Made by a program: the position numbers and the translations under genes. A stretch of DNA of 64,000 bases from Chaetoderma sp. LZ-2023a (Eukaryota > Mollusca > Caudofoveata > Chaetodermatida > Chaetodermatidae), in assembly GCA_034401795.1 (NCBI GenBank), contig CM067374.1:133880300-133944299 (forward strand), in the 5' to 3' direction. This document shows, one piece after another, positions 8,283 to 58,679 of the stretch (the stretch's first letter is position 1; each line of letters begins with the position of its first letter). The notes beneath the pieces are model-generated. The model was not told where the DNA came from and ran no database searches. It saw nothing but the letters and a program-made list of their open reading frames with translations.

Positions 8283-8285
8283 ATT

Positions 8286-8306
8286 TCACATCATGAGAAC
8301 ATACTT
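8286..8306 (+). mobile_element. E6 left terminus, cut off by the E2 insertion
   Basis: tcacatcatgagaacatact plus one t is the left end of E6, as predicted by the E6 ICR at 25738-25790. Its continuation cctccctaacactcttgata is found at 22395, after 14 kb of inserted E2 and E3. ATT (8283-8285) precedes it. Confidence 0.85.
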
Positions 8307-8307
8307 T

Positions 8308-8512
8308 TCACATCAAGAGTATACTTACCTCCCTAATACTTTTGATATTGCTAAATATTGGCTTTCACTCAATAAACACTCAGATTAAAACAGTTAGGTG
8401 CCCCTACTGGGCAGGGAGTCAGAGCGTAGTCTGGCGGATGCCAGCCCCACCACCGCGCATGCGCAGACTAGCACTTCCTCTTTGCTAATTTATTGGCTGA
8501 GAGTGTACACAT
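8308..8512 (+). repeat. E2 left inverted terminal repeat
   Basis: Matches the reverse complement of 22168-22391 except at the tips. It holds the NRF-1-like palindrome GCGCATGCGC at 8455-8464. Confidence 0.88.
8455..8464. promoter_or_regulatory. NRF-1-like palindrome in the E2 left terminal repeat
   Basis: GCGCATGCGC, in context accgcgcatgcgcaga, fits the NRF-1 consensus YGCGCAYGCGCR. The same palindrome occurs at 12170, 18897, 22210, 25863, 31668, 48919 and 55424, always within a DIRS terminal repeat. It is probably part of the element promoter; this is inference. Confidence 0.5.
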
Positions 8513-8589
8513 GCTTTTGTGTTAAGAACTTTCTATACTCTTTTCGAAGTTTTTTGAGACTGTTTGTTAGAAGTTTATCCCTGAGAAAG

Positions 8590-8640
8590 ATGGCAGAGAG
8601 AGTAACTTCACCACAGGAGGGCCTTGGACCTTTAAATCAG
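8590..8640 (+). CDS. E2 gag first coding exon (17 codons)
   Basis: ATG opens MAERVTSPQEGLGPLNQ, ending exactly at cag|gtgact. The 17-codon length, the SP.E..GP..Q pattern and the donor recur in E3 (12306), E7 (31804) and E8 (55298, minus strand). Spliced to 9407 it is in phase 0 with gag. This gives an ATG start to gag, whose downstream open frames have none. Confidence 0.7.
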
Positions 8641-9406
8641 GTGACTTCTAGTAAAATTAGCGAGTTTTGTCCCGTTGTAATGTGTTTCCGGGACTCGCGC
8701 TAAACGTGATAAGCGCCTTGATTAGTTGGTTTATTTCAACTAGGTGCTATATAAGACTAATCTCTCTTTGTGTTTATGTCCACAGGTCTGTGTGAAGAAA
8801 TATAATGGACATGACATCAGCAGAGGGTTTGTGTCTCTCCACCATGGTTCCATTTCCTACTAATACTGTTAGGTTATCTAACCAAAAATTCTATGTCCAG
8901 TGAGTTGGAGGCCTATTATAAAGGTCTTCTCACTTTGCCCTCTTGATCCAATTCCTTCCCCTAGAGGTGGAGAGAGTTAAGAGGCGTTCAGTGGTGGAGT
9001 GCTCCAGTTCATCAGGTTGGATGGTTTGTCTAGACAAGGTGTCAGGTATCTAATTATTGATATGAGGTGATGTTAATTATTTAGAGGAAAGGGAGATAAT
9101 TAACTCTATTTGCCATTGTTATCAGTATATATCTGATGCTTGTGTAGTCGAAATGTCCATTCTGCACATGTTCTGGTTAGAGATACAATTCGTCCTTGCA
9201 CTGGGATGTTTGTTGGGGATCGATTTTTTCCTGTCATAGGATTAATGACGTCATAATCAGCCTTGCTCTTTATTAACAATTAAAGTTGTCCGAAGCTGGT
9301 TTTCTGATAAATTATGGTCTTTATGATCATTTTCCTTCTCTTGAGTTGGTGAGTTTTCTAAGCTTAACTAGTTTGCTCATACTCCTCGTCCTTTGGCCTT
9401 TTTCAG
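8641..9406 (+). other. E2 gag intron (766 nt)
   Basis: Starts gtgact and ends ggcctttttcag. It contains a CRE palindrome TGACGTCA (9246-9253) and a Kozak-type ATG (ccaccATGG, near 8840) opening a 19-codon ORF. Predicted from conservation of both splice sites in four copies. Confidence 0.6.
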
Positions 9407-12021
9407 AGACCTGGTTGTGCGTCCTGTGGACGATTTTTGAGGGACAAGTTTGGCCCTCATCTCTGTTTTCAGTGTAGCCCCTGTGGTCCCTTGCTTAATT
9501 GCGAGATATGTAAGCACTGGGGGAGCGAGCTAATGTCCGAATTCTTGTGCTTGCAGGCGAAGGACAAGGTGGAGGAGGAGAAGAAGAAGCTGAAAAAAGA
9601 GGGTGTAAGTAAGAAGGGTAAGAGGAAGGCCTCGTCCGCGGTGGACATGGAGGCCTTCCGGACCGAGATGTTGGGAGAGATGAGGAGGACAATAAAGGAT
9701 TTGGTTCCAGAGTTGCTTCGTGGCATGCTTCCTGGACCAAATCCTTTATTGACCTCATCATCTGCTTCGGAGCAGGTAATCCCCACCTCTGAATCAACGT
9801 TCCTTAGTACGCTTCCGTTGTTTGAAGATTCAGAGGTGGCCCCATTAGAGGGGGCGTTCCACGGCCCTGGCAGCAGGCTTATTGCCGCGCCCAATAGGGA
9901 CCGTGGACGGTCGTCGCTGGAACCCGCGGGCTGCTTATCAGTCCAGGGGTATCCGCACACCGCGGGTGCCAGTACCTCGTATGGCACCTTCCCTGGCCAG
10001 TCCGGGTTAGCTCTCTTTGCTGACCCGGAGTCTAATCTGTCTGGCCAGGAGGATGAGGATTACCTGTTGGGGTCGCCGTCTGAAGACGTGGCCATGGATT
10101 ATGACGTCTGTCCACCCCTCGCGGGGAATACAGGCGCCTTTTTCCATGGTTCTACTCTCCCAGGGGTAGAATCCACGGTTCAGACTGTGGCCCTGGGCGC
10201 TGAAGGCCAGCGGTACCGCATACCTCGGCTTGCCGAGAGTGTCGCTGGTGCTGGCCGGGGCCGTGGTGGGGCGGTATATGCCCCGCGCTCTACCACGGCG
10301 CCTGCTCCTGGTCAAACCAGTGATATTAGCATGCCGGTATTGTCAGGCCCGCATGTTCTCCCTGGCTTGCCAGGGATATCAGCGTACCCGCCGTCAAGCT
10401 CTGTTGCTTGCGCTCAGGAGGAAGACGAAGGCCCCCGTCTTGTAGAGCGCTCGCAGCTAGCCACGGAGGAGGATTGGTCTGACGCTTGCCAGTGGTGGGT
10501 GAGTGTTAGACCAGATCTGCCCGTGGAGCAGTCGGCTAGCCAGCGTGAGCACAGGCCGTGGTTAGCTGGTAAGCCTACTGCTAACGCTATGCCTTCTCTG
10601 CCGCTGGCAGAGCATGTCGTTGACATGTTCGAGGCGGCGGAGACGTCCATTAAGTCGAGTGGACGTCTCGCTAAGGCCCCGCGCGAGGTGGCCAGGCGTT
10701 GCCGCATCGTGCCCCTGGACTACCAGCGGTACGGTGTGGTACCGAAGCCGAGCGTGGATGACCGCACGGCTTTGGGTGAGGATGCGCGGCCAGGCTCCCG
10801 TTCTGACACGGGAGTCTTGTGTTCGAACGCGTTGCGTTCAGCAAATGCCGCGTTGCGTGATGCGGAGGAGAGTGGGAGGGCTTCGATTGCCGCTCTGTCC
10901 CACGTCTCCCAGCTGTTACAAGGGGTAGTAACAGCATCCGCATCGCGCCAGCCAAGTCCGGTCACAGTCCAGCGAGCCATCCAGGATGGCATCAACCTGG
11001 CTCTGGACTGTATGACGCGGGCGGTGACCAGGAGTGTCCGGGCAAGGCGCACTTTTGCCTTGGATAATCTGTGCCCGTCCCAGGACCTCTACAATAGGCT
11101 ACTACGTACGCCTATGACAGGTCCTGGTCTCTTTGGAGGTGAGGGGTGTAGGCACCTCCAGGAGACGGTTACGCTGGTCAATAACCAGAGGGCGCTGCGC
11201 GAGCAGTTTGAGGTGCTTCGTCGTGCCAACGTTCGCGCCGCACCCCCTGCGTATCGTCCCCTGCAGGCTCGAGGTGGTAGTGGCCAGGTCAGAGGCCAAC
11301 CACCATCGCAGCGCCGGCCTCGGCCGCGTGCGATTCGGCCAGCAGCGAGGGGGGCGCAGGCTCCTCAGCCAGGCAGCCGCCCGCGCACCGAGGTGCGCGT
11401 GGTGCTGGTCGTGGCGCGCGAGGATCTGGGCGGGGTAATCGTTCCTGATGGGACGGTTACCGCGGTGAGAACCGCGCCAGTGTTTCTGGCAAAGGAGACA
11501 GTGCCGCTCTTGCACTCCTTATGTCCACCTCTATCCCTAGGTGGACCGGTGGGAGGCCAGTTAGCCGACCACATGCAAGAGTGGGAACAGTTAACTCAGG
11601 ACCGTTTAGTCTTGCGATGGCTTTCAGTCGGGTATCATCCCGATTGGATGACAGGCCCGCCATCGCGACTGTCTCTAGTGCCGATCTGGACTCCAAATCC
11701 GAGAGATCCAGATCAAAGGTTGTGTATCGAGGAAGAAATAAATTCCCTCATACAGAAAGGAGCTATTCAGCCGGCACAGAGGTGTCCGGGCTTCTATTCA
11801 ACCCTGTTCTTAGTAACAAAGAACACCGGAGGGTGGAGACCAATTCTCAACCTCAAGCCATTGAACAAGTTCATAGAGACGCCCAGTTTCAAGATGGAGA
11901 CTGTGCGCTCGGTGTTGGCGGGGTTAGAGAGGGGAATGTGGACAGCGTCGATAGATTTGAAGGACGCTTATTTCCACATCCCCATACACAGGAGTTTCCG
12001 TCGCTTCCTGAGATTTGCATT
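9407..12021 (+). CDS. E2 gag fused to reverse transcriptase, cut by the E3 insertion
   Basis: The frame opens RPGCASCGRFL...HLCFQC.PCGPL.NCEICKHW, a Cys/His cluster. It passes through an acidic central region, AALSHVSQLLQGV, MTGPGLFGGEGCRHLQETV and an Arg/Gly/Gln-rich basic tail. In E3 and E7 gag stops there and RT is in the +1 frame. In E2 ten bases are missing between two tcagcc repeats near 11365, so gag runs directly into RT (GGWRPILNLKPLNKF, SIDLKDAYFHIPI). It breaks off at RFAF, where E3 sits; the coding sequence goes on at 19084. Confidence 0.88.
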
Positions 12022-12227
12022 TCACTTCAAGAGTATACTTACCTCCCTAATACTTTTGATATTGCTAAATATTGGCTTTCACTCAATAAACACTCAGATT
12101 TAAAACAGTTAGGTGCCCCTACTGGGCAGGGAGTCAGAGCGTAGTCTGGCGGATGCCAGCCCCACCACCGCGCATGCGCAGACTAGCACTACCTCTTTGC
12201 TAGATTATTGGCAAAGAGAACACACAT
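12022..12227 (+). repeat. E3 left inverted terminal repeat
   Basis: Begins tcacttcaagagtatactta and is the inverse of 18855-19079. The right copy extends about 36 bases further, an unequal tip typical of DIRS elements. The NRF-1-like palindrome is at 12170-12179. Confidence 0.92.
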
Positions 12228-12305
12228 GTTTTTTGAGTCATAAGCTTTTCTTGCTCTTTAACGTTTTTATTGGTGTTATTTTGGAAGTGATAAGACCTGA
12301 TTTGG

Positions 12306-12356
12306 ATGGTGGGAGGATACACTTCGCCACAGGAGGACGTTGGACCTTTAAATCAG
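12306..12356 (+). CDS. E3 gag first coding exon (17 codons)
   Basis: ATG opens MVGGYTSPQEDVGPLNQ and the exon ends aatcag|gtgact. It is in phase 0 with the gag body at 13128. Length and donor are as in E2, E7 and E8. Confidence 0.7.
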
Positions 12357-13127
12357 GTGACTTCTAGTAAAATTAGCGAGTTTTCTTCCCGGTGTATTGT
12401 GTTTCCGGGACTCGCGTTTACCGTGATAAGCGCCTTAGTTAGTTGGTTTAGGTCAACTCGGTGCTACCTAGGACTAATTTCTCTTTCTGTTTCTGTCCAC
12501 AGGTCTGTATGACGCTAGGTTGTGACGTCACAGTTGCAGAGAGTTAGTTTTCTCTCCACCATGGTTCCATTTCCTACTAACACTGTTAGGTTATCTAACC
12601 AAATGGAAAAAAAAAAAATTATGTCCAGTGAGTTGGAGGCCTGGTATAAAGGTCTTCTCACTTTGCCCTCTTGATCCAATTCCTTCCCCATGAGGTGGAG
12701 AGAGTTAAGAGGCGTGCAGATGGTGGAGTTTTCCGGTTCGTCACGTTGGATGGTTTGTCTATACAAAGTGTCAGGTATCTAGTTATTGATAATGTGGTGA
12801 TGTTAATTATTGTAAACAAACAAAGGGAGATAATTAACATTTTTGCCAGAAAAGAGTTATCTATATGTATCTGATGGTTGTGTAGTCAACTTATACATTC
12901 AGCATACAATTCGTCCTTGCACTTGGATGTTTTGTTGGGATCGAATTTTTCCTGTCACGGGATTAATGACGTCATAATCAGCTGGCTATGTATTTATTAG
13001 CAATTCAAGCGCTATGCTGGTTTTTGATGTATATTGATCTTTATGATCGTTTTCCTTCTCTTTGAGTTGGATTGAGTTTCTAAGCTTAACTAGTTGCTCA
13101 TACTCCTTGTCCTTTGCCCTGTTTCAG
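12357..13127 (+). other. E3 gag intron (771 nt)
   Basis: From gtgact to tttgccctgtttcag. Two CRE palindromes TGACGTCA lie inside (12523-12530, 12967-12974). A Kozak-type ATG near 12560 opens a short ORF beginning MVPFPTNTVRLSNQ, also present in E2 and E7. Confidence 0.6.
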
Positions 13128-15191
13128 GGACCGGGTTGCGCGTCCTGTGGACGTTTTATGCATGTAAAGTTCTGGCCGCATCTGTGTTATCGATGTAGCC
13201 CTTGTGGTCCATTGATTAATTGTGACATATGTAAGCACTGGGGGGGCGAGTTAATGTCCGAATTCTTGTGCTGCTTACAGGCGACGGACAAGGTGGTAGA
13301 GGAGGAGAAGAAGAAGAAGCGGAAACGAGAGGTTGTAAGTAGGAAGGGTAAGGGGAAGGTCTCGTCCGCGGTGGATATGGAGACCTTCCGGACCGAGATG
13401 TTGGGAGAGATGAAGAGGACAATAAAAGATTTGGTTCCAGGGTTGCTTCGTGGCATGCTTCCTGGACCAGATCCTTTATTGTCCTCATCATCGGCTTCGG
13501 AGCAGGTAATCCCCGCCTCTGGATCGATTTTCCTTAGTCCGCTTCCGTTGTCCGACGATTCAGAGGTGGCCCCATTAGAGGGGGCGTTCCACGACCCTGG
13601 CAGCAGGCTTATTGCCGCGCCGATAGGGGACCGTGGACGGTTGTCGCTGGAACCCGCGGGCTGCTTATCAGTCCAGGGGTATCCGCACGCCGCGGTGGCC
13701 AGTACCTCCTATGGCACCGTTCCTGGTCAGCCCGGGTTAGCTCTCTTTGCTGACCCGGGGTCTAATCTTTCTGACCAGGGTGATGAGGATTACCTGCTAG
13801 GGTCGCCGTCTGACGACGTGGACATGGATGAAGACGTTTGTGCACCCCTCGCGGGGAATACAGGCGCTTTTTTCCACGGTATTACTCACCCTGGAGTAAG
13901 GTCCGCGGTTCAGGTGGTGGCCCAGGGCGCTGCTGATGGCCAGCGGTACCGCATACCTCGGCTTGCCGAGAGTGTAGCTGGTGCTGGCCGGGCCCGTGGT
14001 GGGGCTATATATACCCCGCGCTCTACCGCGGTGCCTGCTCCTGGTCAAACCAGTGATATTCTCATGCCGGTGCTGTCAGGCCCGCATGTTTTCCCTGGCT
14101 TGCCAGGTGTATCAGCGTACCCGCCGTCAAGCTCTACTGCTTGCGCTCAGGAGGAAGACGAAGGACCCCGTCTTGTAGAGCGCTCGCAGTTAGCCACGGA
14201 GGAGGATTGGTATGACGCTTGCCAGTGGTTGGTGAGCGTTAGGCCTGATCTGCCCGTGGAGCAGTCGGCTAGCCACCGTGTTCACACGCCGTGGCTAGCT
14301 GGGAAACCAACTGCTAACGCTATGCCTTCTCTGCCGCTGGCGGAGCATGTCGTTGACATGTTCAAGGCGGCGGAGTCGTCCATTAACACGAGTGGACGTC
14401 TCGCGAAGGCCCCTCGCGAGGTGGCCAGGCGTTGTCGCATCGTGCCCCTGGACTACCAGCGGTACGGTGTGGTACCCAAGCCCAGCGTGGATGACCGCGC
14501 GGCTTTGGGTGAGGATACGCGGCCAGGCTCCCGTTCTGACGCGGGGGTCTTGTGCGCGAACGCGTTGCGTTCGGCGAATACCGCGTTGCGTGATGCGGAG
14601 GAGAGTGGGAGGGCTTCGATTGCCGCTCTGTCCCACGTCTCCCAGCTGTTACAGGGGGTAGTAACGGCATCCGCATCGCGCCAGCCAGGCCCGCTCGCGG
14701 TCCAGCGAACCATCCAGGATGGTATTAACCTGGCGCTGGACTGTATGACGCGGGCGGTGACCAGGAGTGTCCGGGCAAGACGCACATTTGCCCTGGACAA
14801 TCTGTGCCCGTCTCAGGACCTGTATAATAGGCTACTCCGTACGCCTATGACGGGTCCTGGTCTTTTTGGTGGTGAGGGATGTCGCCACCTCCAGGAGACG
14901 GTCACCCTGGTGAATAACCAGAGGGCGCTGCGCGAACAGTTTGAGGTGCTGCGTCGTGCTAACGTTCGCGCCGCGGCCCCTGCGTATCGTCCCCTGCAGG
15001 CTCGAGGTGGTGCTGGCCAAGTCAGAGGCCAGCCGCCGTCGCAGCGCCGGCCTCGGCCGCGTGCGATTCGGCCAGCAGTGAGGGGGGCGCAGGCTCCTCA
15101 GCCGCCGTCAGCCAGGCAGCCGCCCGTGCACCGAGGTGCGCGCGGGGCGGGGCGGGTCGCGCGAGGATCTGGGCGTGGTTATCGTTCCTGA
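13128..15191 (+). CDS. E3 gag-like protein, main exon
   Basis: 687 codons, 704 with the first exon. Order: Cys/His cluster (GCASCGRF, HLCYRCSPCGPL, NCDICKHW), a Lys/Glu-rich stretch (about residues 60-85 of the exon), FRTEMLGEMKRTIKDLVPGL, a long acidic Pro/Ser/Gly-rich centre, the conserved ATEEDWYDACQWLVSVRPDL, HVVDMFKAAE, AALSHVSQLLQGV, GPGLFGGEGCRHLQETVTLV, and a basic RGG/Gln-rich tail. No database family was assigned by eye beyond DIRS gag position. It presumably binds RNA and builds particles. No stop or frameshift seen. It ends in GRGYRS and TGA, overlapping the RT frame. Confidence 0.85.
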   Translation, partial: GPGCASCGRFMHVKFWPHLCYRCSPCGPLINCDICKHWGGELMSEFLCCLQATDKVVEEEKKKKRKREVVSRKGKGKVSSAVDMETFRTEMLGEMKRTIKDLVPGLLRGMLPGPDPLLSSSSASEQVIPASGSIFLSPLPLSDDSEVAPLEGAFHDPGSRLIAAPIGDRGRLSLEPAGCLSVQGYPHAAVASTSYGTVPGQPGLALFADPGSNLSDQGDEDYLLGSPSDDVDMDEDVCAPLAGNTGAFFHGITHPGVRSAVQVVAQGAADGQRYRIPRLAESVAGAGRARGGAIYTPRSTAVPAPGQTSDILMPVLSGPHVFPGLPGVSAYPPSSSTACAQEEDEGPRLVERSQLATEEDWYDACQWLVSVRPDLPVEQSASHRVHTPWLAGKPTANAMPSLPLAEHVVDMFKAAESSINTSGRLAKAPREVARRCRIVPLDYQRYGVVPKPSVDDRAALGEDTRPGSRSDAGVLCANALRSANTALRDAEESGRASIAALSHVSQLLQGVVTASASRQPGPLAVQRTIQDGINLALDCMTRAVTRSVRARRTFALDNLCPSQDLYNRLLRTPMTGPGLFGGEGCRHLQETVTLVNNQRALREQFEVLRRANVRAAAPAYRPLQARGGAGQVRGQPPSQRRPRPRAIRPAVRGAQAPQPPSARQPPVHRGARGAGRVARGSGRGYRS

Positions 15192-15224
15192 CAGGGCGCT
15201 TACCGCGGTAAGGACCACGCCGGT

Positions 15225-18161
15225 GTGTATGGCGACGGAGACAGTGCCGCTCTTGCATGCCTTGTGTCCACTGCGGTCCCTAGGTGGACCGGTGGGAGGC
15301 CGGCTAGCCGACCACATGCAAGAGTGGGAACGGTTAACTCAGGACCGTTTAGTCTTGCGATGGCTTTCCGTGGGGTATCATCCAGAGTGGATGACAGGCC
15401 CGCCGTCGCGACTGTCTCTGGTGCCAGTCTGGACTCCCATTCCGAGAGATCCAGATCAAAGGTTGTGTATCGAGGAGGAGATAAATTCCCTCGTACAAAA
15501 AGGAGCTATTCAGCCGGCACAAAGGTGTCCGGGCTTCTATTCAACCCTGTTCTTGGTAACAAAACGCACCGGTGGGTGGAGACCGATTCTCAACCTCAAG
15601 CCATTGAACAAGTTCATCGAGACGCCCAGTTTCAAGATGGAAACGGTGCGCTCGGTGTTGGCGGGGTTGGAGAGGGGGATGTGGACGGCGTCGATAGATT
15701 TGAAGGACGCTTATTTCCACATCCCCATCCACAGGAGTTTCTGTCGCTTCCTGAGATTTGCATTCCAGGGCAGACAGTGGGAATTCAGGGTGTTGCCCTT
15801 CGGAATTTCCACGGCTCCTCGGGTTTTCACCCGTGTGGTTCTTGCGATCACAGCATACCTCCGCAGGAGAAGCATAGCAGTCCACACGTACATAGACGAC
15901 TGGCTGTTGAAAGCGCACACCCGGGAAAGTTTGTCCGCCAATCTGGAGATTGTTTTGAAAATTCTCACAGACTTGGGCTGGATGATCAATTTCCCAAAAT
16001 CAGAGCTGACTCCATCCCAGAAGTTTGTTTACCTGGGGATGTTCTTCGATCTGGAGACAGGATATGTTTATCCTACTCAGGAGAGAGTTCAAATACTCAT
16101 CTCGTTGATTCAGTCAGTGTGCGACAGTCGTCATGTCCTGGCACGGGTTTACTTGAGAATGCTGGGGTTGATGGTTTCGTTGGAACCAGTCATTCCTCAG
16201 GCCGCCTTACGCAGGCGGCCGATCCAGTTGTTTCTCATGACACAATGGACCCAGAGTACAGGTTCGCTGGACTCGAATGTGTCAGTGTTGGCGCCTCTGA
16301 TTCACCACCTGCAATGGTGGTTGAATACAGAGAATCTCTTGCCGGGGGTTTTGCTAACCCCTCCCCACCCTCAGGTGACTGTGTATACAGATGCATCGAT
16401 GGAGGGCTAGGGAGCTTGCCTGGAAGAATCCACGATATCAGGGCTTTGGAATCTGGAACAGTCACAGGAACATATAAATCTACTGGAGCTAAGAGCAGTA
16501 GTCCTGGGCCTGGAACATTTCTTACAGAAAGTTCAGGGCAAGATTGTTCTTATTCGTTCAGACAACTCAACAGTTGTGACTTACATAAACCGCCAGGGCG
16601 GAACGAAGTCGCCCAGTCTCTGTATGATGACATGGAAACTGCTTTGTTGGTGTCTGGATCACCAGATTACCTTGAAAGCAGTTCATATTCCGGGAAGGTT
16701 AAACCTGCTAGCAGACTCATTGAGCCGAAGGATGAGTGTTTTACCCACGGAATGGCAACTAAATCAATGTGTGGCGGATCGTCTGTTCGACCATTGGGGG
16801 AAACCCAACATCGATTTGTTCGCAACGAAGAAGAATGCGAAGATGACGACGTACGTCTCTCCGATTCCGGATCCAAGCGCTTTCGCAACAGATGCGTTAG
16901 CTATCAGCTGGGGGAGAATGTATGCATACGCATTCCCTCCAGCAATCCTGATTCCAAAAATTCTTCAGAAAATCAGACAAGAGGAATGCCAAGTGCTTCT
17001 GATTGCCCCGGATTGGCCAAGCCGATCATGGTATACGGATCTGCTGGACCTTCTGGTCTGCAATCCGGTTCCTCTGCCTCTGATGGACGATATTATCTTC
17101 CAGGGCAAGGCCCTTCACAACAATCCGTCAATGTTCAGATTGACTGCGTGGATGTTGTCAAGGAATCTAGAATTAAGGAGGGCTTTTCTGAGCAAGCAGC
17201 CATGTTTATGCCCAAAGCCAGGAGGGGGTCAACCTCCAGAGCATATAATTATAAAATCAACAGATTTGCAGAATGGTGCTCAAAAAGATGTATTGATCCA
17301 ATGGATTCATCTATTCAAGTAGTAGCTGATTTCCTCTGTCACCTCTATGATGCCTATAGCCTCAAGCCTAACTCTATTGCTGGTTATAAGTCAGCATTAA
17401 TGTCTGTTATTCCTTGCTTGGCTAAGAGGGGAAGTGATGAAGTAAATACATTGAATGTATTAATTAAAGGCATGGGCAATCTAAGACCAAGGAATCCTCC
17501 TGTGATTCCGTCTTGGAGTTTATCGCTAGTGCTTCAAGTACTAGGTGATAAGCCTTTTGAACCACTTAGTTCCATTTCTATGAAACTATTAACACTGAAG
17601 ACTGTGTTTTTAATTGCTGCGGCCTCGGCTAGGCGTAGGAGTGAGATTCATGCCTTATCAGCCGAGGATGACCGTTTTGTGGTTTCAGGGGAAGGCCTTA
17701 AGCTGCTACCTAGGATTAATTTCTTGGCTAAAAATCAGTCGTTGAAATATCCAGGTCAACCTATTATTTTGCCTGCTTTAACTAGATATGATCCTAATTC
17801 TAAAGCATGGTGTCCCGTCCGGGCGCTGCGCCGGTACAAACAACGTACGGCGGCATGGCGCACCGACCAGTCAGCGTTATGGTTGTCATATATTGAACCC
17901 CATGGGAGGGCTTCTAAGGACACCATTTCCAGGTGGATTGTGGAATGCATTCAGTTTTGCCATAAATCCGCCACCGGGAAGCAGGTTGACGTGGCCAAGG
18001 CTCACAGTGTCCGCGGCGTAGTGACATCCACGGCCCTATTTAATGGGGTCCCTGTGGATGATATTATGTCGGTGGCTCAGTGGCACTGTGAGTCAAGTTT
18101 TACAGACCATTATCTCCGTGACACCTCTAATCCTCTCGCCTTGTCGGTTTTGAAAAAATAA
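15225..18161 (+). CDS. E3 tyrosine recombinase, with a long N-terminal frame overlapping RT
   Basis: One frame is open for 978 codons. About the first 660 overlap the RT ORF in another frame and have no recognisable domain. The recombinase begins near 17160 with RRGSTSRAYNYKINRFAEWC and LCHLYDAYSLKPNSIAGYKS, then the catalytic residues: Arg in SARRRSEIHAL, His 18003-18005 and Arg 18012-18014 in AHSVRG, Trp in VAQWHCES, and nucleophile Tyr 18111-18113 in HYLRD. The real start is unknown; splicing, frameshifting or internal initiation are all possible. This is the integrase of the element and appears intact. Confidence 0.9.
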   Translation: MYGDGDSAALACLVSTAVPRWTGGRPASRPHARVGTVNSGPFSLAMAFRGVSSRVDDRPAVATVSGASLDSHSERSRSKVVYRGGDKFPRTKRSYSAGTKVSGLLFNPVLGNKTHRWVETDSQPQAIEQVHRDAQFQDGNGALGVGGVGEGDVDGVDRFEGRLFPHPHPQEFLSLPEICIPGQTVGIQGVALRNFHGSSGFHPCGSCDHSIPPQEKHSSPHVHRRLAVESAHPGKFVRQSGDCFENSHRLGLDDQFPKIRADSIPEVCLPGDVLRSGDRICLSYSGESSNTHLVDSVSVRQSSCPGTGLLENAGVDGFVGTSHSSGRLTQAADPVVSHDTMDPEYRFAGLECVSVGASDSPPAMVVEYRESLAGGFANPSPPSGDCVYRCIDGGLGSLPGRIHDIRALESGTVTGTYKSTGAKSSSPGPGTFLTESSGQDCSYSFRQLNSCDLHKPPGRNEVAQSLYDDMETALLVSGSPDYLESSSYSGKVKPASRLIEPKDECFTHGMATKSMCGGSSVRPLGETQHRFVRNEEECEDDDVRLSDSGSKRFRNRCVSYQLGENVCIRIPSSNPDSKNSSENQTRGMPSASDCPGLAKPIMVYGSAGPSGLQSGSSASDGRYYLPGQGPSQQSVNVQIDCVDVVKESRIKEGFSEQAAMFMPKARRGSTSRAYNYKINRFAEWCSKRCIDPMDSSIQVVADFLCHLYDAYSLKPNSIAGYKSALMSVIPCLAKRGSDEVNTLNVLIKGMGNLRPRNPPVIPSWSLSLVLQVLGDKPFEPLSSISMKLLTLKTVFLIAAASARRRSEIHALSAEDDRFVVSGEGLKLLPRINFLAKNQSLKYPGQPIILPALTRYDPNSKAWCPVRALRRYKQRTAAWRTDQSALWLSYIEPHGRASKDTISRWIVECIQFCHKSATGKQVDVAKAHSVRGVVTSTALFNGVPVDDIMSVAQWHCESSFTDHYLRDTSNPLALSVLKK
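15229..17322 (+). pseudogene. E3 reverse transcriptase - RNase H - DIRS linker, one nonsense codon
   Basis: The start is the first ATG of this frame, downstream of the gag stop; the frame is also open upstream, overlapping gag. RT motifs: GGWRPILNLKPLNKF, SIDLKDAYFHIPI, LPFGISTAPRVF, YIDDWLL (Y-I-D-D at 15889-15900). RNase H residues: Asp in YTDASMEG, Glu in LELRAVVLGLEHF, Asp in RSDNSTVV, Asp in LADSLSRR. At codon 394 the TGG of EGWGACLEE is TAG (16408-16410), so RNase H and the C-terminus are lost; E2 and E7 have TGG. After RNase H comes NIDLFATKKNAK, VSPIPDPSAFATDALAISW and LLIAPDWPSRSW, where DIRS elements often carry a Dam-methyltransferase-related domain. Confidence 0.9.
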
Positions 18162-18710
18162 ATCGGTTTATATTTTTTGAGGTGATTTCCTCATTACTTA
18201 TATATATCACAATTAATTTGTGGAAACACCCACTTTTTTGGGCCTGCATCAGTCTTTACCGATGGGAAGATGATGTCAGCAGCCATTTTCAACAAGGTCA
18301 GTCTTGTTCATGTGTTGTCCATTGTTGATTGTATTGTCACGATTACCCGTTATTAATATGGTGATGGTTTGTGTATTTGTGTGGTTCATTGTTGAGAGTT
18401 ACGAAAATGGAGTTTTTTCGTCTCTGTCCTGTAGTACATGGCACTTGTACGTAGAGAGCGTATAGGACATTGAGGTCAGTCGACTCTTCCTCCCAGGAAG
18501 GAGGGGGGGGGGGGAGCGCATATGACATTCGGTCATCTCTCATACATCGGTGATGTTATCCGATGGTTAGTCAAATCCTGACTGTTTTTTCTTACAGTTT
18601 CAGAAGTTTAAGTGCCTTAAACGCAGAAAAGCGTATAGGGATGAGCTGGTCTTTTGACCTCGCCTCCCTCCCGCCAGATTCACTTTCGAATTCTGGCAAT
18701 ATCAAAAGTA
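18162..18710 (+). other. E3 3' untranslated region, possible intron
   Basis: No gene. An intron-like segment runs from aag|gtcagt (18297) to tttttcttacag (18597) and is paralleled in E2 (21613-21910). A poly-G run lies near 18505. Confidence 0.45.
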
Positions 18711-18795
18711 TTAGGGAGGTAAGTATACTCTTGAAGTGAAATAAACGAAATCTAGGATTTCTTTTTTCACGAGAGAGTTGATACTTACCTCCCTA
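18711..18795 (+). repeat. E3 internal complementary region
   Basis: Reads ttagggaggtaagtatactc...gaagtga (reverse complement of the left end), AAT (18740-18742), then aaacgaaatctaggatttc... (reverse complement of the right end, 19028-19079). It is a faithful copy of the joined ends of a circle with ATT between them. Confidence 0.93.
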
Positions 18796-18854
18796 GATAC
18801 GGACCCGGCCTCTCCACCCCACAGAGGCTCGGTCTTCAGGCTCTTAATAGTTGC

Positions 18855-19079
18855 ATGTGTGTCAGCCAATAATCTAGTCAGAGGAAGTGCTAGTCTGCGC
18901 ATGCGCGGTGGTGGGGCTGGCATCCGCCAGACTACGCTCTGACTCCCTGCCCAGTAGGGGCACCTAACTGTTTTAAATCTGAGTGTTTATTGAGTGAAAG
19001 CCAATATTTAGCAATATCAAAAGTATTAGGGAGGTAAGTATCAACTCTCTCGTGAAAAAAGAAATCCTAGATTTCGTTT
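18855..19079 (+). repeat. E3 right inverted terminal repeat
   Basis: Reverse complement of 12022-12227 with a longer tip ending ctagatttcgttt. The NRF-1-like palindrome is at 18897-18906. It is followed by ATT and the resumed E2 RT. Confidence 0.92.
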
Positions 19080-19083
19080 ATTC

Positions 19084-20640
19084 CAGGGCAGACAGTGGGA
19101 ATTCAGGGTGCTACCCTTCGGAATTTCCACGGCTCCTCGGGTTTTCACCCGTGTGGTTCTTGCGATCACCGCATACCTCCGCAGGAGAAGCATAGCAGTC
19201 CACACGTACATAGACGACTGGCTGTTGAAAGCGCACACCCGGGAAAGTTTATCGGCCAGTCTGGAGATTGTTTTGAAAACTCTCACAGACTTAGGCTGGA
19301 TGATCAATTTCCCAAAATCAGAGCTGATTCCATCCCAGAAGTTTGTTTACCTGGGGATGTTCTTCGATCTAGAGACAGGATATGTTTATCCTACTCAGGA
19401 GAGAGTTCAGAAACTCATCTCATTAATTCAGTCAGTGTGCGACAGTCGTCATGTCCTGGCACGGGTTTACTTGAGAATGCTGGGGTTGATGGTTTCATTG
19501 GAACCAGTCATTCCTCAGGCCGCCTTACGCAGGCGGCCGATCCAGTTATTTCTCATGAAACAATGGACCCAGAGTACAGGTTCGCTGGACTCGAATGTGT
19601 CAGTGTTGGCGCCTCTGATTCATCACCTGCAATGGTGGTTGGACACAGAGAATCTCTTGGTGGGGGTTATGCTAACCCCTCCCCACCCTCAGGTGACTGT
19701 GTATACAGATGCATCGATGGAGGGCTGGGGAGCTTGCCTGGAAGAGTCTACGATATCAGGGCTTTGGAATCTGGAACAGTCAAAGGAACATATAAATCTA
19801 CTGGAGCTAAGAGCAGTAGTCCTGGGCCTGGAACATTTCTTACAGAAAGTTCAGGGCAAGATTGTTCTTATTCGTTCAGACAACTCAACAGTTGTGACTT
19901 ACATAAACCGCCAGGGCGGAACGAAGTCGCCCAGTCTCTGTATGATGACATGGAGACTGCTTTGTTGGTGTCTGGGTCACCAGATTACCTTGAAAGCAGT
20001 TCATATTCCGGGAAGGTTAAATCTGCTAGCAGACTCATTGAGCCGAAGGATGAGTGTTTTACCCACGGAATGGCAACTAAATCAATGTGTGGCGGATCGT
20101 CTGTTCGACCATTGGGGGAAACCCAACATCGATTTGTTCGCAACGAAGAAGAATGCGAAGATGACGACGTACGTCTCTCCGATTCCGGATCCAAGCGCTT
20201 TCGCAACAGATGCGTTAGCTATCAGCTGGGGGAGAATGTATGCATACGCATTCCCTCCAGCAATCCTGATTCCAAAAATTCTTCAGAAAATCAGACAAGA
20301 GGAATGCCAAGTGCTTCTGATCGCCCCGGATTGGCCAAGCCGATCATGGTATACGGATCTGCTGGACCTTCTGGTCTGCAATCCGGTTCCTCTGCCTCTG
20401 ATGGACGATATTATCTTCCAGGGCAAGGCCCTTCACAACAATCCGTCAATGTTCAGATTGACTGCGTGGATGTTGTCAAGGAATCTAGAATTAAGGAGGG
20501 CTTTTCTGAGCAAGCAGCCATGTTTATGGCCAAAGCCAGGAGGGGGTCAACCTCCAGAGCATATAATTATAAAATCAACAGATTTGCAGAATGGTGCTCA
20601 AAAAGATGTATTGATCCAATGGATTCATCTATTCAGGTAG
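19084..20640 (+). CDS. E2 RT C-terminal half, RNase H and linker
   Basis: In frame with the RT segment ending at 12021 once E3 and one ATT are disregarded. Y-I-D-D is at 19207-19218. RNase H residues are all present (YTDASMEGWGA, LELRAVVLGLEHF, RSDNSTVV, LADSLSRR), with TGG where E3 has a stop. The linker DLFATKKNAK...DALAISW follows. The frame ends within the recombinase N-terminus. No lesion is visible, so before E3 arrived E2 probably coded an intact enzyme. Confidence 0.9.
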   Translation, partial: QGRQWEFRVLPFGISTAPRVFTRVVLAITAYLRRRSIAVHTYIDDWLLKAHTRESLSASLEIVLKTLTDLGWMINFPKSELIPSQKFVYLGMFFDLETGYVYPTQERVQKLISLIQSVCDSRHVLARVYLRMLGLMVSLEPVIPQAALRRRPIQLFLMKQWTQSTGSLDSNVSVLAPLIHHLQWWLDTENLLVGVMLTPPHPQVTVYTDASMEGWGACLEESTISGLWNLEQSKEHINLLELRAVVLGLEHFLQKVQGKIVLIRSDNSTVVTYINRQGGTKSPSLCMMTWRLLCWCLGHQITLKAVHIPGRLNLLADSLSRRMSVLPTEWQLNQCVADRLFDHWGKPNIDLFATKKNAKMTTYVSPIPDPSAFATDALAISWGRMYAYAFPPAILIPKILQKIRQEECQVLLIAPDWPSRSWYTDLLDLLVCNPVPLPLMDDIIFQGKALHNNPSMFRLTAWMLSRNLELRRAFLSKQPCLWPKPGGGQPPEHIIIKSTDLQNGAQKDVLIQWIHLFR

Positions 20641-21479
20641 TAGCTGATTTCCTCTGTCACCTCTATGATGCCTATAGCCTCAAGCCTAACTCTATTGCTG
20701 GTTATAAGTCAGCATTAATGTCTGTTATTCCTTGCTTGGCTAAGAGGGGAAGTGATGAAGTAAATACATTAAATGTATTAATTAAAGGCATGGGCAATCT
20801 AAGACCAAGGAATCCACCTGTGATTCCGTCTTGGAGTTTATCGCTAGTGCTTCAAGTACTAGGTGATAAGCCGTTTGAACCACTTAGTTCCATTTCTATG
20901 AAACTATTAACACTGAAGACTGTGTTTTTAATTGCTGCGGCCTCGGCTAGGCGTAGGAGTGAAATTCATGCCTTATCAGCCGAGGATGACCGTTTTGTGG
21001 TTTCAGGGGAAGGCCTTAAGCTGCTACCTAGGATTAATTTCTTGGCTAAAAATCAGTCGTTGAAATATCCAGGTCAACCTATTGTTTTGCCTGCTTTAAC
21101 TAGATATGATCCTAATTCTAAAGCATGGTGTCCCGTCCGGCCGCTTTGCCGGTACAAACAACGTACGGCGGAGTGGCGCACCGACCAGTCGGCGTTATGG
21201 TTGTCTTATATTGAACCCCATGGCAGGGCTTCTAAGGACACCATTTCCAGGTGGATTGTAGAATGCATTCAGTTTTGCCATAAATCCGCCACCGGGAAGC
21301 AGGTTGACGTGGCCAAGGCTCACAGTGTCCGCGGCGTAGTGACATCCACTGCCCTATTTAATGGGGTCCCGGTGGATGATATTATGTCGGTGGCTCAGTG
21401 GCACTGTGAGTCAAGTTTTACAGACCATTATCTCCGTGACACCTCTAATCCTCTCGCCTTGTCGATTTTGAAAAAATAA
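19095..21479 (+). CDS. E2 tyrosine recombinase and overlapping N-terminal frame
   Basis: Same layout as in E3: a frame open through RT-RNase H and then the recombinase from about 20480. Catalytic residues: Arg in SARRRSEIHAL, His 21321-21323, Arg 21330-21332, Trp in AQWHCES, Tyr 21429-21431. The upstream overlapping frame is also open at 11521-12021, before the E3 insertion. Nearly identical to the E3 protein. Confidence 0.9.
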   Translation: MGIQGATLRNFHGSSGFHPCGSCDHRIPPQEKHSSPHVHRRLAVESAHPGKFIGQSGDCFENSHRLRLDDQFPKIRADSIPEVCLPGDVLRSRDRICLSYSGESSETHLINSVSVRQSSCPGTGLLENAGVDGFIGTSHSSGRLTQAADPVISHETMDPEYRFAGLECVSVGASDSSPAMVVGHRESLGGGYANPSPPSGDCVYRCIDGGLGSLPGRVYDIRALESGTVKGTYKSTGAKSSSPGPGTFLTESSGQDCSYSFRQLNSCDLHKPPGRNEVAQSLYDDMETALLVSGSPDYLESSSYSGKVKSASRLIEPKDECFTHGMATKSMCGGSSVRPLGETQHRFVRNEEECEDDDVRLSDSGSKRFRNRCVSYQLGENVCIRIPSSNPDSKNSSENQTRGMPSASDRPGLAKPIMVYGSAGPSGLQSGSSASDGRYYLPGQGPSQQSVNVQIDCVDVVKESRIKEGFSEQAAMFMAKARRGSTSRAYNYKINRFAEWCSKRCIDPMDSSIQVVADFLCHLYDAYSLKPNSIAGYKSALMSVIPCLAKRGSDEVNTLNVLIKGMGNLRPRNPPVIPSWSLSLVLQVLGDKPFEPLSSISMKLLTLKTVFLIAAASARRRSEIHALSAEDDRFVVSGEGLKLLPRINFLAKNQSLKYPGQPIVLPALTRYDPNSKAWCPVRPLCRYKQRTAEWRTDQSALWLSYIEPHGRASKDTISRWIVECIQFCHKSATGKQVDVAKAHSVRGVVTSTALFNGVPVDDIMSVAQWHCESSFTDHYLRDTSNPLALSILKK

Positions 21480-22010
21480 CTTGGCATATATTTTTGATGG
21501 GGTTTCCTCATTGCTTATATATTTCACAATTAATTTATGGAAACAACCACTAATTTGGGACTGCATCGTGCTTCACCAATGGGAAGAGGATGTCAGCAGC
21601 CATTTTCAACAAGGTCAGTCTTGTGTATGTGTTGTCCATTGTTGATTGTCTTGTCACGTTACCCGTTATTAATATGATGATGGTTTTGTGTATTTATGTG
21701 GTTCATTGTTGAGAGTATACGAAAATGGGTTTTTTTCGTCTCTGTCCTGTAGTACATGGCACTTGTACGTAGAGAGCGTATAGGACATTGAGGTCATTCG
21801 ACTCTTCCTCCCAGGAAGGAGGGGGGGAGCGCATATGACATTCGGTCATCTCTCATACATCGGGGGTGTTATCCGATGGTTAGTCAAATCCTGACTGTTT
21901 TTTCATACAGTTTCAGAAGTTTAAGTGCCTTAAACGCAGAAAAGCGTATAGGGATGAGCTGGTCTTTTGACCTCGCCTCCCTCCCGCCGAATTCACTGTC
22001 GAATTCTGGC
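21480..22010 (+). other. E2 3' untranslated region, possible intron
   Basis: No gene. The intron-like stretch from gtcagt (21613) to catacag (21910) and the G-run near 21822 parallel E3. Confidence 0.45.
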
Positions 22011-22017
22011 AATATCA

Positions 22018-22110
22018 AAAGTATTAGGGAGGTAAGTATACTCTTGATGTGAAATAAACGAAATCAAGGATTTCTTTTTTCACGAGAGAGTTGATACTTA
22101 CCTCCCTAGA
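22018..22110 (+). repeat. E2 internal complementary region
   Basis: Contains cttgatgtga AAT aaacgaaatcaagg. This differs from the E3 ICR at just the bases where the ends of E2 differ from those of E3 (left tip tcacatcaag, right tip ccttgatttcgttt), so it belongs to E2. Confidence 0.92.
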
Positions 22111-22167
22111 TACGGACCCGGCCTCTCCACCCCACAGAGGCTCGGTCTTCAGGCTCTTTATAGTTGC

Positions 22168-22391
22168 ATGTGTATCAGCCAATAAATTAGTCAGAGGAAG
22201 TGCTAGTCTGCGCATGCGCGGTGGTGGGGCTGGCATCCGCCAGACTACGCTCTGACTCCCTGCCCAGTAGGGGCACCTAACTGTTTTAATCTGAGTGTTT
22301 ATTGAGTGAAAGCCAATATTTAGCAATATCAAAAGTATTAGGGAGGTAAGTATCAACTCTCTCGTGAAAAAAGAAATCCTTGATTTCGTTT
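22168..22391 (+). repeat. E2 right inverted terminal repeat
   Basis: Inverse of 8308-8512 with the longer right tip. The NRF-1-like palindrome is at 22210-22219. The following triplet is ATA (22392-22394). Confidence 0.9.
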
Positions 22392-22392
22392 A

Positions 22393-22600
22393 TACCTCCC
22401 TAACACTCTTGATATACTAGTATATCGGCTCTAAACTCAATAATATTCAGAATTATAAAAAGTTAGGTGCCCCTAATGAGCAGGGGGATGTACACGTCAT
22501 GCACATGACAGACCCCACCATATTGCGTATGCGCATACTGGTACTTCCGTTTTCTAATATATTGGCTATATGTTAAAAACATTTCCAGTCTCTTTTTTGA
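22393..22600 (+). repeat. E6 left inverted terminal repeat, main part
   Basis: Inverse of the E6 right repeat (about 25840-26030), including ggtgcccctaatgagcaggg. The NRF-1-like site is mutated to gcgtatgcgc (22525-22534). Confidence 0.85.
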
Positions 22601-22634
22601 GAATTTTCAGTAGTTTAAACCATCTTCTCACACT

Positions 22635-22682
22635 ATGACGGATAATAAAGCATCAGAGGAGTCCTCCTCGTCATCCACTAAG
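22635..22682 (+). CDS. E6 gag first exon candidate
   Basis: ATG opens MTDNKASEESSSSSTK and ends aag|gtgata. Position and donor match the spliced leader exon of E2, E3 and E7. The intron and the Cys/His exon that should follow are largely deleted here. Confidence 0.5.
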
Positions 22683-22721
22683 GTGATATTGTTCCATATA
22701 TTAATTAAGATTAATTAATTC

Positions 22722-24386
22722 ATGGGCACCCTACTAGGTCAGACAGGTTTCAGTGATCCAGGGGCGGCTGTCTTGGACCTAGGCTTGATGTTCGCATCGC
22801 CTGGTGATCCAACGGCGCGAGCAGCATCAGGCGGGACCCGACCAGCGGGCCTGAACTCGATCACTCGCGGAGTACCCTCATCATCTGCCCTCGGGCATTC
22901 TCCTGATCAGTCTGGGTTAGTGTTTCTTGCTAACTCAGAGTCTAACTTTCCTGACCAGGAAGATGATGAAGACTACATGCTTGACCCACAGGATGGTCAT
23001 GAAGAAATGGATGCGAGTGTCTACACTCCTCTCATAGGGAGTGCGGCTGCTCACACCTATGGTTCTGTTCCCTCGGGAGCAGGCTTGATTCAGCCTATTG
23101 GCCGATTTGGAGCGGATGGCCGCCCGTATAAGATACCACGTTTAGACGTGGAATCTCATACGGACGATCCGGGCCGCGCTAGTGTGCTTAATTCCCCACA
23201 CATGAGCGCGATCTCGGTGCTCGGCCAGCCTGTGGAGAATGTCATGCCAGCCCGCGCGGGCCCGTATGCATTCCCTGGGCAGCCAGGTTCGTCTATAGCC
23301 TCCTCCACGGCCCTAGCTGCGAATGCCATTGAAGATGACGAGGGCCCGCTGCTCGCCGGCATTTCGCAGGTAGCTACGGACGAAGACTGGTATGACGCGT
23401 GCGCGTGGCTCCTCGCAGTCAGACCAGAGCTCTCCGTGGATGAAACGGCCGCCAGTAACCCTCGGGCATGGTTACAGGCAAAGCCGTTGGCCAACACGAC
23501 TCAGTCTCTGCCGTATGCTGAAAATATCTTAGATATGTTCTCGGCGGCAGAGGAGTCGATTAGACCGACAGGTCGCCTCGCGAAGCCCCCCCCCCTCCCC
23601 CCGCGTGAGGTTGCTAGGCGATGTCGAGTTACTGCTAGTCAGTATGCTCGATGTGGCCTAGTGCCCAGACCGAGCACGGACGACCGCGCCGCTCTGGGAG
23701 AAGATACGCGGCCAGGATCCCGTGCTGACACGGGAGCGCTGTGCTCGGGCGCTATGCGCTCAGCTAATGCCGCCTTGCGTGACACCAATGAGAGCTCGCG
23801 AGCAGCAATCAGTGTGCTGTCGCACGTGTCTCAGCTGCTATCTGGCGTAGTAGCAGCCTCGGTGCACCAACAGCCTTGTCCAGTGACAGTGCAGTGAGCC
23901 ATCCAGGATGGGATCAACCTGGCATTGGACTGGCTGACTAGGTCAGTCACCAAATCGCTGCGGACGAGGCGCACTTTTGCCGTGGCCAATTTGTGCCCAT
24001 CCCAGGAGCTCAAGTCGCGCTTGTTGCAAGCGCCGATGGTGGTCCCTGGTCTTTTTGGAGGTGAGGGTTGTCGGCACCTCCAAGAGACAGTTAATTTGGT
24101 GAACAACCAGTGTGCGCTGCGTGCACAGTTTGAAGTGCTGCGCAGAGAACATGTGCGTGTTCAGCCCTCAGTTGCTCGACAGCAGTACGCTCGTGGCGGT
24201 GCTGGCATTGCCAGAGGCCAGCAGGCCAGTAGGGTTCAGAGACCGCGTCGGCCGCGCCAGCAGCAGCGTGCTGCTGTACGTCAGCCAGCGCCTCAAGTGC
24301 AGCCAGCCAGCCGGCAGCCCGCGCACCGCGGTGCACGTGGTGCTGGGCATGGCACGCGAGGAGCGGCGCATGGTAACTGGGCCTGA
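22722..24386 (+). pseudogene. E6 gag, N-terminus lost, one nonsense codon
   Basis: Starts inside the acidic central part, so the Cys/His cluster is missing. It keeps ATDEDWYDACAWLLAVRPEL, AENILDMFSAAEESI, VLSHVSQLLSGV and VVPGLFGGEGCRHLQETV with a Gln/Arg-rich tail. The frame is interrupted at 23895-23897 by TGA where the other elements have CGA, a typical CpG transition. A CCCCCCCCCTCCCCCC run at about 23586 has added residues. Confidence 0.8.
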
Positions 24387-24393
24387 CTGGCTA

Positions 24394-25243
24394 AAAGAAT
24401 TTCCGGTTACCACAGGTACCACTCTGGTGTTGTCACATGTATCAGAGACACACCCACTTCATAAATTCATGGGCACCCCGTTAACCCATTTGACTTTCCA
24501 CATTCACGAGTGGGAGCTGTTAATTCACGACCGCTTAGTCTTGAAATGGCTTTCTCGCGGATACAGTCCAGAGTGGATAAAAGGTCCGCCATTGCATCTG
24601 TCTCTGGTACCGATCTGGACTCAAATTCCAAGAGATACAGACAAACGGTTGTGCATAGAAGAGGAGATAGAATCTCTAATTCTAAAAGAAGCAATTCAAC
24701 CGGCGCATGATTGCCCGGTCTTCTATTCAACCATGTTTCTTGTGACAAAGAACACCGGGGGTGGGGGGGGGGGTGGGTGGGGAGAGACCAATTCTCAACC
24801 TCAAACCACTGAACAAGTTTATAGATACACCGAGTTTCAAAATGGAAACAATAAGATTGGTGTTGTTGTGGTTAGAGAAGGTTATGTGGACAGCATCAAT
24901 AGATCTCAAAGATGCTTATTTCCACATTCCAATTGCAAGGAGCTTTCGTCGGTCCCTGAGATTTGCTTTTCAGGGACGCCAATGGGAATTCAAAGTTCTT
25001 CCATTCTGCATCTCAACGGCTCCAAGGGTCTTCACTCGAGTGGTATTCGCTATCACAGCATACCTCCGTAGTAGAAATATAGCAGTCCACACTTACATAG
25101 ACGACTGGTTGCTAAAAGCACACAACCCAGAAAGTTTGACAGCAAATCTGGAGATAGTTTTGAAAACTCCCACAGATTTAGGCTGGATAATTAACTTTTA
25201 GAAATCAGAGCTGACTCCATCCCAGAAGTTTGTTTACCTGGGT
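24394..25243 (+). pseudogene. E6 reverse transcriptase, broken and truncated
   Basis: Recognisable from WLKEFPVTTGT through FYSTMFLVTKNTGG. There an expanded G tract (24757-24784) shifts the frame; RPILNLKPLNKF, SIDLKDAYFHIPI and YIDDWLL (25094-25105) follow in the new frame. TAG at 25199-25201 replaces the Pro codon of NFPKSEL, and the gene ends at KFVYLG where the large deletion begins. Confidence 0.85.
24757..24784 (+). repeat. G-rich tract with quadruplex potential
   Basis: ggggg t gggggggggg t ggg t gggg replaces the short ggagggtgg of related elements. Four G runs of three or more on one strand allow a G-quadruplex. It lies at the left boundary of a tandem duplication. Confidence 0.7.
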
Positions 25244-25737
25244 ACCATTCTCTTCATCCGGTGGGGGAAGAGATGAGTTCCGTGCCCAAGACATCAAGAG
25301 GTCAGTATATGTGACCATTTTGTTTTTTTGTCTTGGTGATGGTGTCATATTTTTAATTTTTAATATGGTGATGGTTAATGTCTCTTAATTGTGGTACTTT
25401 CAGGGTTTTTTCGAAAATGAAGCAATTCTTCTTTTTCCAATGTCTAGTAATACTTTTCATCAAGTATTAGAGAACGTGCTAGTCATTTAGAGCAGTGTTT
25501 TTTCCTAACCTTCCTCAGAAAGATGGGGGGGGGGGAGCGCATTTGCCTTTTGATCAATCTCTCTTCATCGGTCGATTATCCGATGCAAAATTCTATTCCT
25601 GTTTGTGTTTCAGACACACTTTCAGATGTTTTTTAAATCTCTTGAAAATTCAAAGAGCTCTAGTCTCTTCGAGGGTGTGCTGGTTTTCAGGACCTTGCCT
25701 CCCTCCCGCCAAATGTAAATTCTGGCTTTTATCAAGA
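25244..25737 (+). other. E6 3' region after the internal deletion
   Basis: Aligns to the 3' untranslated region of E2 and E3 (aagaggtcagtatatgtgac, poly-G then agcgcat). No gene. 25305-25539 is absent from the duplicate copy. Confidence 0.6.
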
Positions 25738-25790
25738 GTGTTAGGGAGGTAAGTATGTTCTCATGATGTGAAATAAGAAAATTTACCGAG
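25738..25790 (+). repeat. E6 internal complementary region, shortened
   Basis: gtgttagggaggtaagtatg...gatgtga is the reverse complement of the E6 left end at 8286; AAT follows, then aagaaaattt, the reverse complement of the right tip. The part beyond is lost compared with E2 and E3. Confidence 0.85.
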
Positions 25791-25839
25791 AGGCCTGGTC
25801 CTTTGGTTAATTGAATAGTTGCTTCTATGTCAGCCAATA

Positions 25840-26053
25840 TTTAGTAGCGGAAGTACCAGTATGCGCATGCGCAGTAGGTGGGGTCTGTCATGTGCATGAT
25901 TGTGTACATCCCCCTGCCCATTAGGGGCACCTAACTGTTTATAATTCTGAATATTATTGAATTTAGAGCCGATATACTAGTATATCAGGAGTATTAGGGA
26001 GGTAAGTAAGTATGTCATCTCACTCGTGAAAAAGAAATTTGATAAATTTTCTT
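25840..26053 (+). repeat. E6 right inverted terminal repeat
   Basis: Inverse of 22393-22600, with an NRF-1-like GCGCATGCGC at 25863-25872, ending gataaattttctt. AAT (26054-26056) is shared with the satellite. Confidence 0.87.
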
Positions 26054-26849: not shown

Positions 26850-26867
26850 GGGGGGGGTGGGGTGGGA

Positions 26868-31517: not shown

Positions 31518-31519
31518 TT

Positions 31520-31725: not shown

Positions 31726-31803
31726 GTCTTTTTGTGCAAAAGCTTTTTCTTATTCTTAAACTGTTTAAGTGGTGTTATTTTGGAGTGATAGTCACTTTTT
31801 TGG

Positions 31804-58574: not shown

Positions 58575-58679
58575 GTAAAGACATACAATTTGAATAACAA
58601 CCCTTAGTCCATCTTCATTTAAGCGTTCGCTACATACTTATCTATGTCACTCATTGAATATGACATCATCCCACACATT

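Follow-up and report, generated by a model that had tools for sequence, protein, structure and literature searches.

Insertion junctions of DIRS1-like retrotransposons in Chaetoderma point to joining of circle and target at one fixed position

Introduction

DIRS1-like retrotransposons, such as DIRS-1 of Dictyostelium and AcaDIRS and LgDIRS of molluscs, share inverted terminal repeats, an internal complementary region (ICR) whose complement corresponds to the circle junction, a right extension, a reverse transcriptase/RNase H, a tyrosine recombinase and the absence of target duplication. The account of how these elements enter the genome had rested on a drawn model in which the target is identical to the circle junction over 3 bp, and the junctions of an abundant family test this model directly. 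Such a family is present in the DNA studied here, a 64,000-nt window of Chaetoderma sp. LZ-2023a (GCA_034401795.1, contig CM067374.1, positions 133,880,300-133,944,299 of the forward strand), where an element designated E1 carries a nested copy of its own family, E2, and itself interrupts a related element, E6. The drawn model fails at the junctions of this family. The model proposed in its place has a single fixed point of exchange, a half-site on one side of the target, and a hairpin whose pairs are named. In contrast to the accepted model, the 3-bp identity between circle and target is unnecessary, exchange maps to a single point, N^TT (the caret marks the exchange), and the hairpin of the right extension covaries between families.

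The integron reaction between attC and attI, catalyzed by IntI, resembles the present case in its single exchange point, in a predicted folded hairpin site with unpaired bases, and in a cut after AA, the integron cut being 5'-RYYYAA^C and the one proposed here 5'-GTGAAA^T. However, integrons are bacterial, their attC sites contain two boxes and variable loops, and the Chaetoderma targets are scattered rather than represented by one attI; in predicted fold, the recombinase is also nearer to Cre than to the integron integrase. By analogy, the Chaetoderma elements may work like integron attC sites without being members of that system. Tn916 and Tn1549 are likewise inserted by a tyrosine recombinase at sites that lack homology to the circle junction, but these elements have short coupling sequences, different at every insertion, whereas the element ends are constant here. 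The tyrosine recombinases of the Vibrio elements SE-6945 and SE-6283 exchange one strand only, according to PMC9345347, as those of the present elements may also do; the SE elements differ in being copied out from DNA, in carrying six bases of the donor site, and in having neither reverse transcription nor an ICR. A literature search, whose coverage left out most subscription papers including the main reviews of these elements, returned no study in which DIRS integration proceeds from a folded single strand or the right extension is described as a hairpin.

Insertion junctions and the exchange point

E1 (8306..22392, forward strand; TTTCAC...GTTTA, with its ends and ICR read directly) is inserted blunt in the left end of E6. 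Its left junction reads catac-TTT-TCACATCAAGAG and its right junction GATTTCGTTT-ATA-CCTCCCTAACA; the left triplet TTT (8305..8307, forward) comprises target base 1 and element bases 2-3, and the right triplet ATA (22392..22394, forward) comprises element base 1 and target bases 2-3. The ICR (22027..22106, reverse strand) reads GATTTCGTTT-ATT-TCACATCAAGAG when reverse-complemented, and this complement, the circle junction GTTT-ATT-TCAC, is predicted to fold into a long hairpin. Within the E6 left end, the target triplet appears as catac-TTA-cctccc. Exact genomic matches to the pattern GAGAACATACNNNCCTCCCTAACACTC number 2135 and comprise E6-type left ends and ICRs, and among the matches listed 99 of 100 read TTA and one TTC. 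These letters (TTT, ATA, ICR ATT and target TTA) had all been given correctly in an earlier note on this DNA, and its view that TTA and ATT gave TTT and ATA as the products of one reciprocal exchange between circle and target, with target letters kept on both sides, is borne out. That note named the span 8303-22396 E2; the span corresponds to the outer element E1 of this report, E2 being the nested copy, and the junction argument is left intact because both ICRs give ATT. E2 (12020..19080, forward) lies in the reverse transcriptase of E1 and has ATT as both triplets, in the target (gatttgc-ATT-ccaggg) and, through its ICR (18714..18793, reverse), in the circle junction GTTT-ATT-TCAC.

The test that the earlier note had proposed, a tabulation of triplets over many insertions, is decisive; with 49 insertions from the same genome (43 E1-type and 6 E6-type), the single-exchange rule holds. 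The left triplet is N-TT in 48 of the 49 and the right one starts with A in every case, so the pattern at E1 is not a product of chance. Ends considered singly behave in the same way: E6-type left ends are N-TT in 8/8 cases, and base 1 on the right is A in all 58 distinct E1-type and all 6 E6-type right ends. The E1-type right ends fall into 56 GTTT-A, one ATTT-A and one GTTC-A (n=58), with no second junction class. Since left bases 2-3 and right base 1 are constant while the remainder varies, the exchange can be placed between triplet bases 1 and 2 (A^TT), whereby left bases 2-3 and right base 1 belong to the element. These sequences show, with very high probability, that the circle junction, as given by the ICRs, always joins the target at the same position, GTTTA^TTTCAC.

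The target triplets, defined as left-triplet base 1 plus right-triplet bases 2-3, are far less uniform (n=48; L019, with the left triplet TTC, was excluded from target counts). Their middle base is A in 12, C in 2, G in 16 and T in 18. The number of bases shared with ATT is three in 8 targets, two in 12, one in 24 and none in 4 (L016 and L023, both TAA; L021, TGA; L028, GAC). As any middle base is accepted and four triplets have no base in common with ATT, the triplet does not represent a homology required for recombination, and letters shared between circle junction and target are shown, at the level of sequence, to be dispensable.

Published data can be examined in the same way. Table 3 of PMC3266345 contains 28 DIRS1-like elements, of which 18 have equal termini and 10 unequal ones. 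After two of the latter with a 2-base junction were set aside, start bases 2-3 and end base 1 agree with the circle in 8/8 elements, and the middle base at the end is mismatched in six of these. As far as this table goes, it fits point exchange better than 3-bp identity. Of the five molluscan elements in the table, four show ATT as termini, with right extensions of 46-49 as that paper defines them.

Target half-site

The consensus of the target around the exchange is W^DTYYVY with A at +10 (n=48). The strongest of the 24 positions tested are T at +2 (37/48, p=1e-10) and A at +10 (34/48, p=5e-9); Y, Y, V and Y are found at +3 to +6, and A or T at -1 in 42/48. At the register of the exchange, targets match the left end of the element, TTTCACWTCA, at 4.56 of 10 positions, compared with 2.98 (standard deviation 0.27) at other registers, and the left side of the target has no conspicuous inverted partner for this half-site. 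The aligned targets are shown to carry one weak, one-sided half-site that resembles the element's own left end. In their usual geometry, tyrosine recombinases bind the arm that lies 5' of the cut, on the strand being cut. Given this geometry, the one-sided motif suggests that the exchanged strand is the antisense one, which has the polarity of first-strand complementary DNA (cDNA; 5'-GTGAAA^T). G at +8 (21/48) and A at +10 are located approximately one helical turn from the exchange, and +8 differs from the element left end.

Uninserted sites

The joined flanks of the 49 insertions were compared with all sequence retrieved. For 22 of them a match spanning the join was obtained; two of these matches (L075 and L077) were the locus's own junction, which left 20 real comparisons. 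In 15 of the 20 the best match is free of gaps at the join, as in L010 (ACT, 96% over 100 bases), L078 (TGT, 99%), L037 (AGA, 97%) and E2 (ATT, 99%), and these show no target site duplication; for L021 (TGA) the gap-free best match, 98% identical, reads TGG. The target triplet is also kept in divergent uninserted copies for L016 (TAA, 87% identical) and L028 (GAC, 81% identical). In the other five (L025, L031, L049, L082 and L088), where flanks are repetitive or matches divergent, a gap interrupts the best match close to the join, and the E6-type L049 differs by one base within a run. E1 has 105 matches, of which the best is gap-free and 83 carry a gap, as many of them are ends of related elements.

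E6 supplies a further uninserted site. Its left end, TTTCACATCATGAGAACATACT (8284..8305, forward), is separated by E1 from the remainder (22393..26054, forward), which runs to the right end CTTA; its triplets are ATT on the left and AAT on the right, and its target AAT lies within a minisatellite. Four intact copies of the 16-base target occur in the flanking minisatellite, GATGCATAATGCATGG at 26217..26232 (forward) and others at 26341, 28064 and 28188. Taken together, the compared sequences indicate that insertion is mostly blunt, with nothing duplicated or lost.

Long target duplications were considered for L021, L078 and L088, whose flanks share direct repeats of 41, 96 and 43 bases, and were rejected, these flanks being tandem arrays. 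Internal uninserted units of the arrays at L021 and L078 match without a gap, and the match at L088 has one. In the window, a tandem duplication appears to include the right part of E6 together with the minisatellite next to it (24776-28750), with start-to-start spacings of 1847 and 2082.

Circle-junction hairpin

When folded as single-stranded DNA, the ICR complement has a predicted energy of -25.3 kcal/mol (z -8.9). The right extension of E1, AAAGAAATCCTTGATTTCGTTTA (22370..22392, forward), is delimited here as the sequence after the final base paired with the left end, and it would form a hairpin abutting the exchange point. Between the E1 and E6 hairpins 33 pairs are retained, six of them by two-sided changes, with no one-sided change and no broken pair, as counted on hand-set blocks with one representative per family, MAFFT misplacing the middle stem. 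Four of the six two-sided changes fall in the right extension. As delimited here, the extension does not repeat the left end in inverted form and thus lacks that reason for self-complementarity. Considered alone, the right extension is matched or beaten by 63 (E1), 71 (E6) and 24 (L109, see below) of 5000 shuffles. Unpaired bases adjoin the exchange point in the predicted folds of both the E1 and E6 families, and the inner stem is changed in three E6-type copies (L058, L060 and L066). These comparisons show the right extension to be a predicted hairpin that covaries between the two families.

Other sequence collections were searched for further families and yielded one useful locus, L109 (NZ_CAHJWD020000217.1, 5378 bases, ICR at 5227-5312), which is titled as a Bathymodiolus brooksi thiotrophic gill symbiont. 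It encodes a DIRS recombinase and has an inverted terminal repeat and an ICR, and most likely stems from the mussel host, its DNA having entered a symbiont assembly. A number of proteins from metagenome-assembled genomes of Thiodiazotropha look similar. L108, a viral contig from IMG/VR, was not used; the tyrosine recombinase it encodes is distant (23% identity, E 3e-5 among the candidates).

Family membership and recombinase

The window elements are DIRS1-like tyrosine-recombinase retrotransposons. Their ends are inverted terminal repeats, the ICR is complementary to each of these ends with overlap at the 3-bp circular junction, and they encode a tyrosine recombinase with the R..H..R..Y signature. 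Pfam RVT_1 was detected at 34667-36796 (E=5.6e-07, 29.9 bits, cut-off 29.6); RT_RNaseH in the same interval (E=9e-05) and a weak match to Dam, the domain of Dam-like methyltransferases (E=0.0043), are each under their cut-off. Failure of the published rule that the target equals the circular junction bears on an integration model rather than on family architecture. The recombinase of E2 (17133..18161, forward) is an open frame of 342 amino acids with conserved R168, K200, H291, R294, W317 and Y327 and a Cre-like predicted fold. Cre ranks first among its fold matches, which include Tn1549 structures; a likeness specific to integron proteins was considered and not shown.

Proposed mechanism and alternatives

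With two staggered exchanges a heteroduplex remains, from which replication yields two junction classes approximately 6-8 bases apart. The single class observed here, with A as right base 1 throughout, where staggered exchanges would have given two, suggests that one strand is exchanged and the product resolved by replication. A lone strand exchange that replication then resolves leaves exactly one junction class, as PMC8946536 describes for integrons. The complete scenario, to which a probability of about 0.5 is assigned, combines joining at a fixed point, one strand exchange resolved by replication, and a folded single-stranded cDNA circle. In this scenario the cDNA circle would be closed over the ICR as a splint, and its right extension would form a hairpin whose unpaired bases adjoin the exchange point, presenting the Cre-like recombinase with a duplex site. 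The recombinase would then exchange one strand, in the antisense polarity, at 5'-GTGAAA^T, and the junction would be resolved by replication.

The components of this scenario differ in strength. A single strand exchange by the recombinase is somewhat more likely than not from the junction sequences, and folded single-stranded cDNA as its substrate, which is suggested by the modeled folds, has slightly less than an even chance. Direct integration of the first-strand cDNA, through an attC-like right-extension hairpin, one exchange at GTGAAA^T, a one-sided half-site and host replication, is proposed more tentatively. The L109 locus weighs against a fixed hairpin geometry: its ICR has the same junction, GTTTA^TTTCAC, but folds into another hairpin with other unpaired positions, its insertion flanks lying outside the contig. 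If the single-strand scenario is true, integron-type recombination of a folded single strand exists in eukaryotic retroelements, and integration of a single strand explains why DIRS elements have an ICR and a right extension.

The single exchange point would be explained equally well by a double-stranded circle from which one strand is exchanged with a strong strand bias, followed by replicative resolution and involving no folded single strand. Strand bias has a precedent in the Vibrio SE elements (PMC9345347), and circular intermediates have been reported for DIRS-1 (PMC5633606, citing Boesler 2014). Such a circle, however, assigns no role to the hairpin, which covaries and has unpaired bases at the point of exchange, nor to a reported single-stranded cDNA intermediate; this alternative is considered somewhat unlikely. 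A double-stranded circle might also undergo two staggered exchanges over a non-homologous overlap, in the manner of Tn916 and Tn1549, if the heteroduplex were always repaired in one direction. Tyrosine recombinases indifferent to homology do exist, and Tn1549 structures are among the fold matches, but approximately half of the insertions would be expected at the other edge of the overlap, and 0 of the 58 distinct E1-type right ends are found there, which makes it improbable.

Recombination of the 3-bp circular junction with an identical genomic 3-bp, the model of PMC3266345, accommodates E2, which is ATT throughout, and the 18 of 28 elements with equal termini in the table of that paper. It is already contradicted by the target triplets, as ATT is the target in just 8/48, and also by the 8/28 tabulated elements that combine unequal termini with a 3-base junction, and it is regarded as very improbable. 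The earlier note had instead centered the exchange on a shared middle T as its only requirement. A middle T is indeed present in E1 (TTA), in E2 (ATT) and in 18/48 targets, but a different middle base occurs in 30/48 and E6, in the same window, used AAT; that version is refuted and has practically no remaining probability. The interpretation offered by the note is thus partly supported, with its reciprocal exchange upheld and its middle T set aside.

Sample and counting rules

The comparison set comprised 48 E1-type copies and 9 E6-type pairs, all on one chromosome-sized contig. Both ends were recovered for 41/48 and 6/9, respectively, and E1 and E2 of the window brought the total to 49. The E1-type rows dropped were six that have no left end in the stretch examined and L045/L046, which has neither end and whose right-hand match is an ICR. 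The end search tolerated up to 4 errors against the intact end, and 47 of the 48 right stretches yielded an end, the remaining one being an ICR. L067, which had been taken as a left end, is an ICR and was not counted, and exclusion of a truncated window ICR reduced the E6-type left ends from 9 to 8 real ones. Six of the 58 distinct E1-type right ends were recruited by similarity to the window query, and 52 remain without those.

The DIRS family of E1 is very abundant genome-wide. A 26-base right-end pattern has 10,635 exact genomic matches (5412 forward, 5223 reverse), some of which are ICRs. Paired matches of this pattern had raised the suspicion of a "250-bp mini-element"; they are the ICR and right end of a variant, and part of the 10,635 matches are thus ICRs.

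Other elements in the window

A third copy, E3 (31518-37476), is located in a (TG)n run with the left triplet TTT, and its right part meets an N stretch that ends at 37457. The related element C1 (48740..55584, reverse) has the triplets TTT on the left and ATT on the right. A further related element, C2, has the right triplet AAT at 58677..58679 (reverse) and its ICR at 60251-60331.

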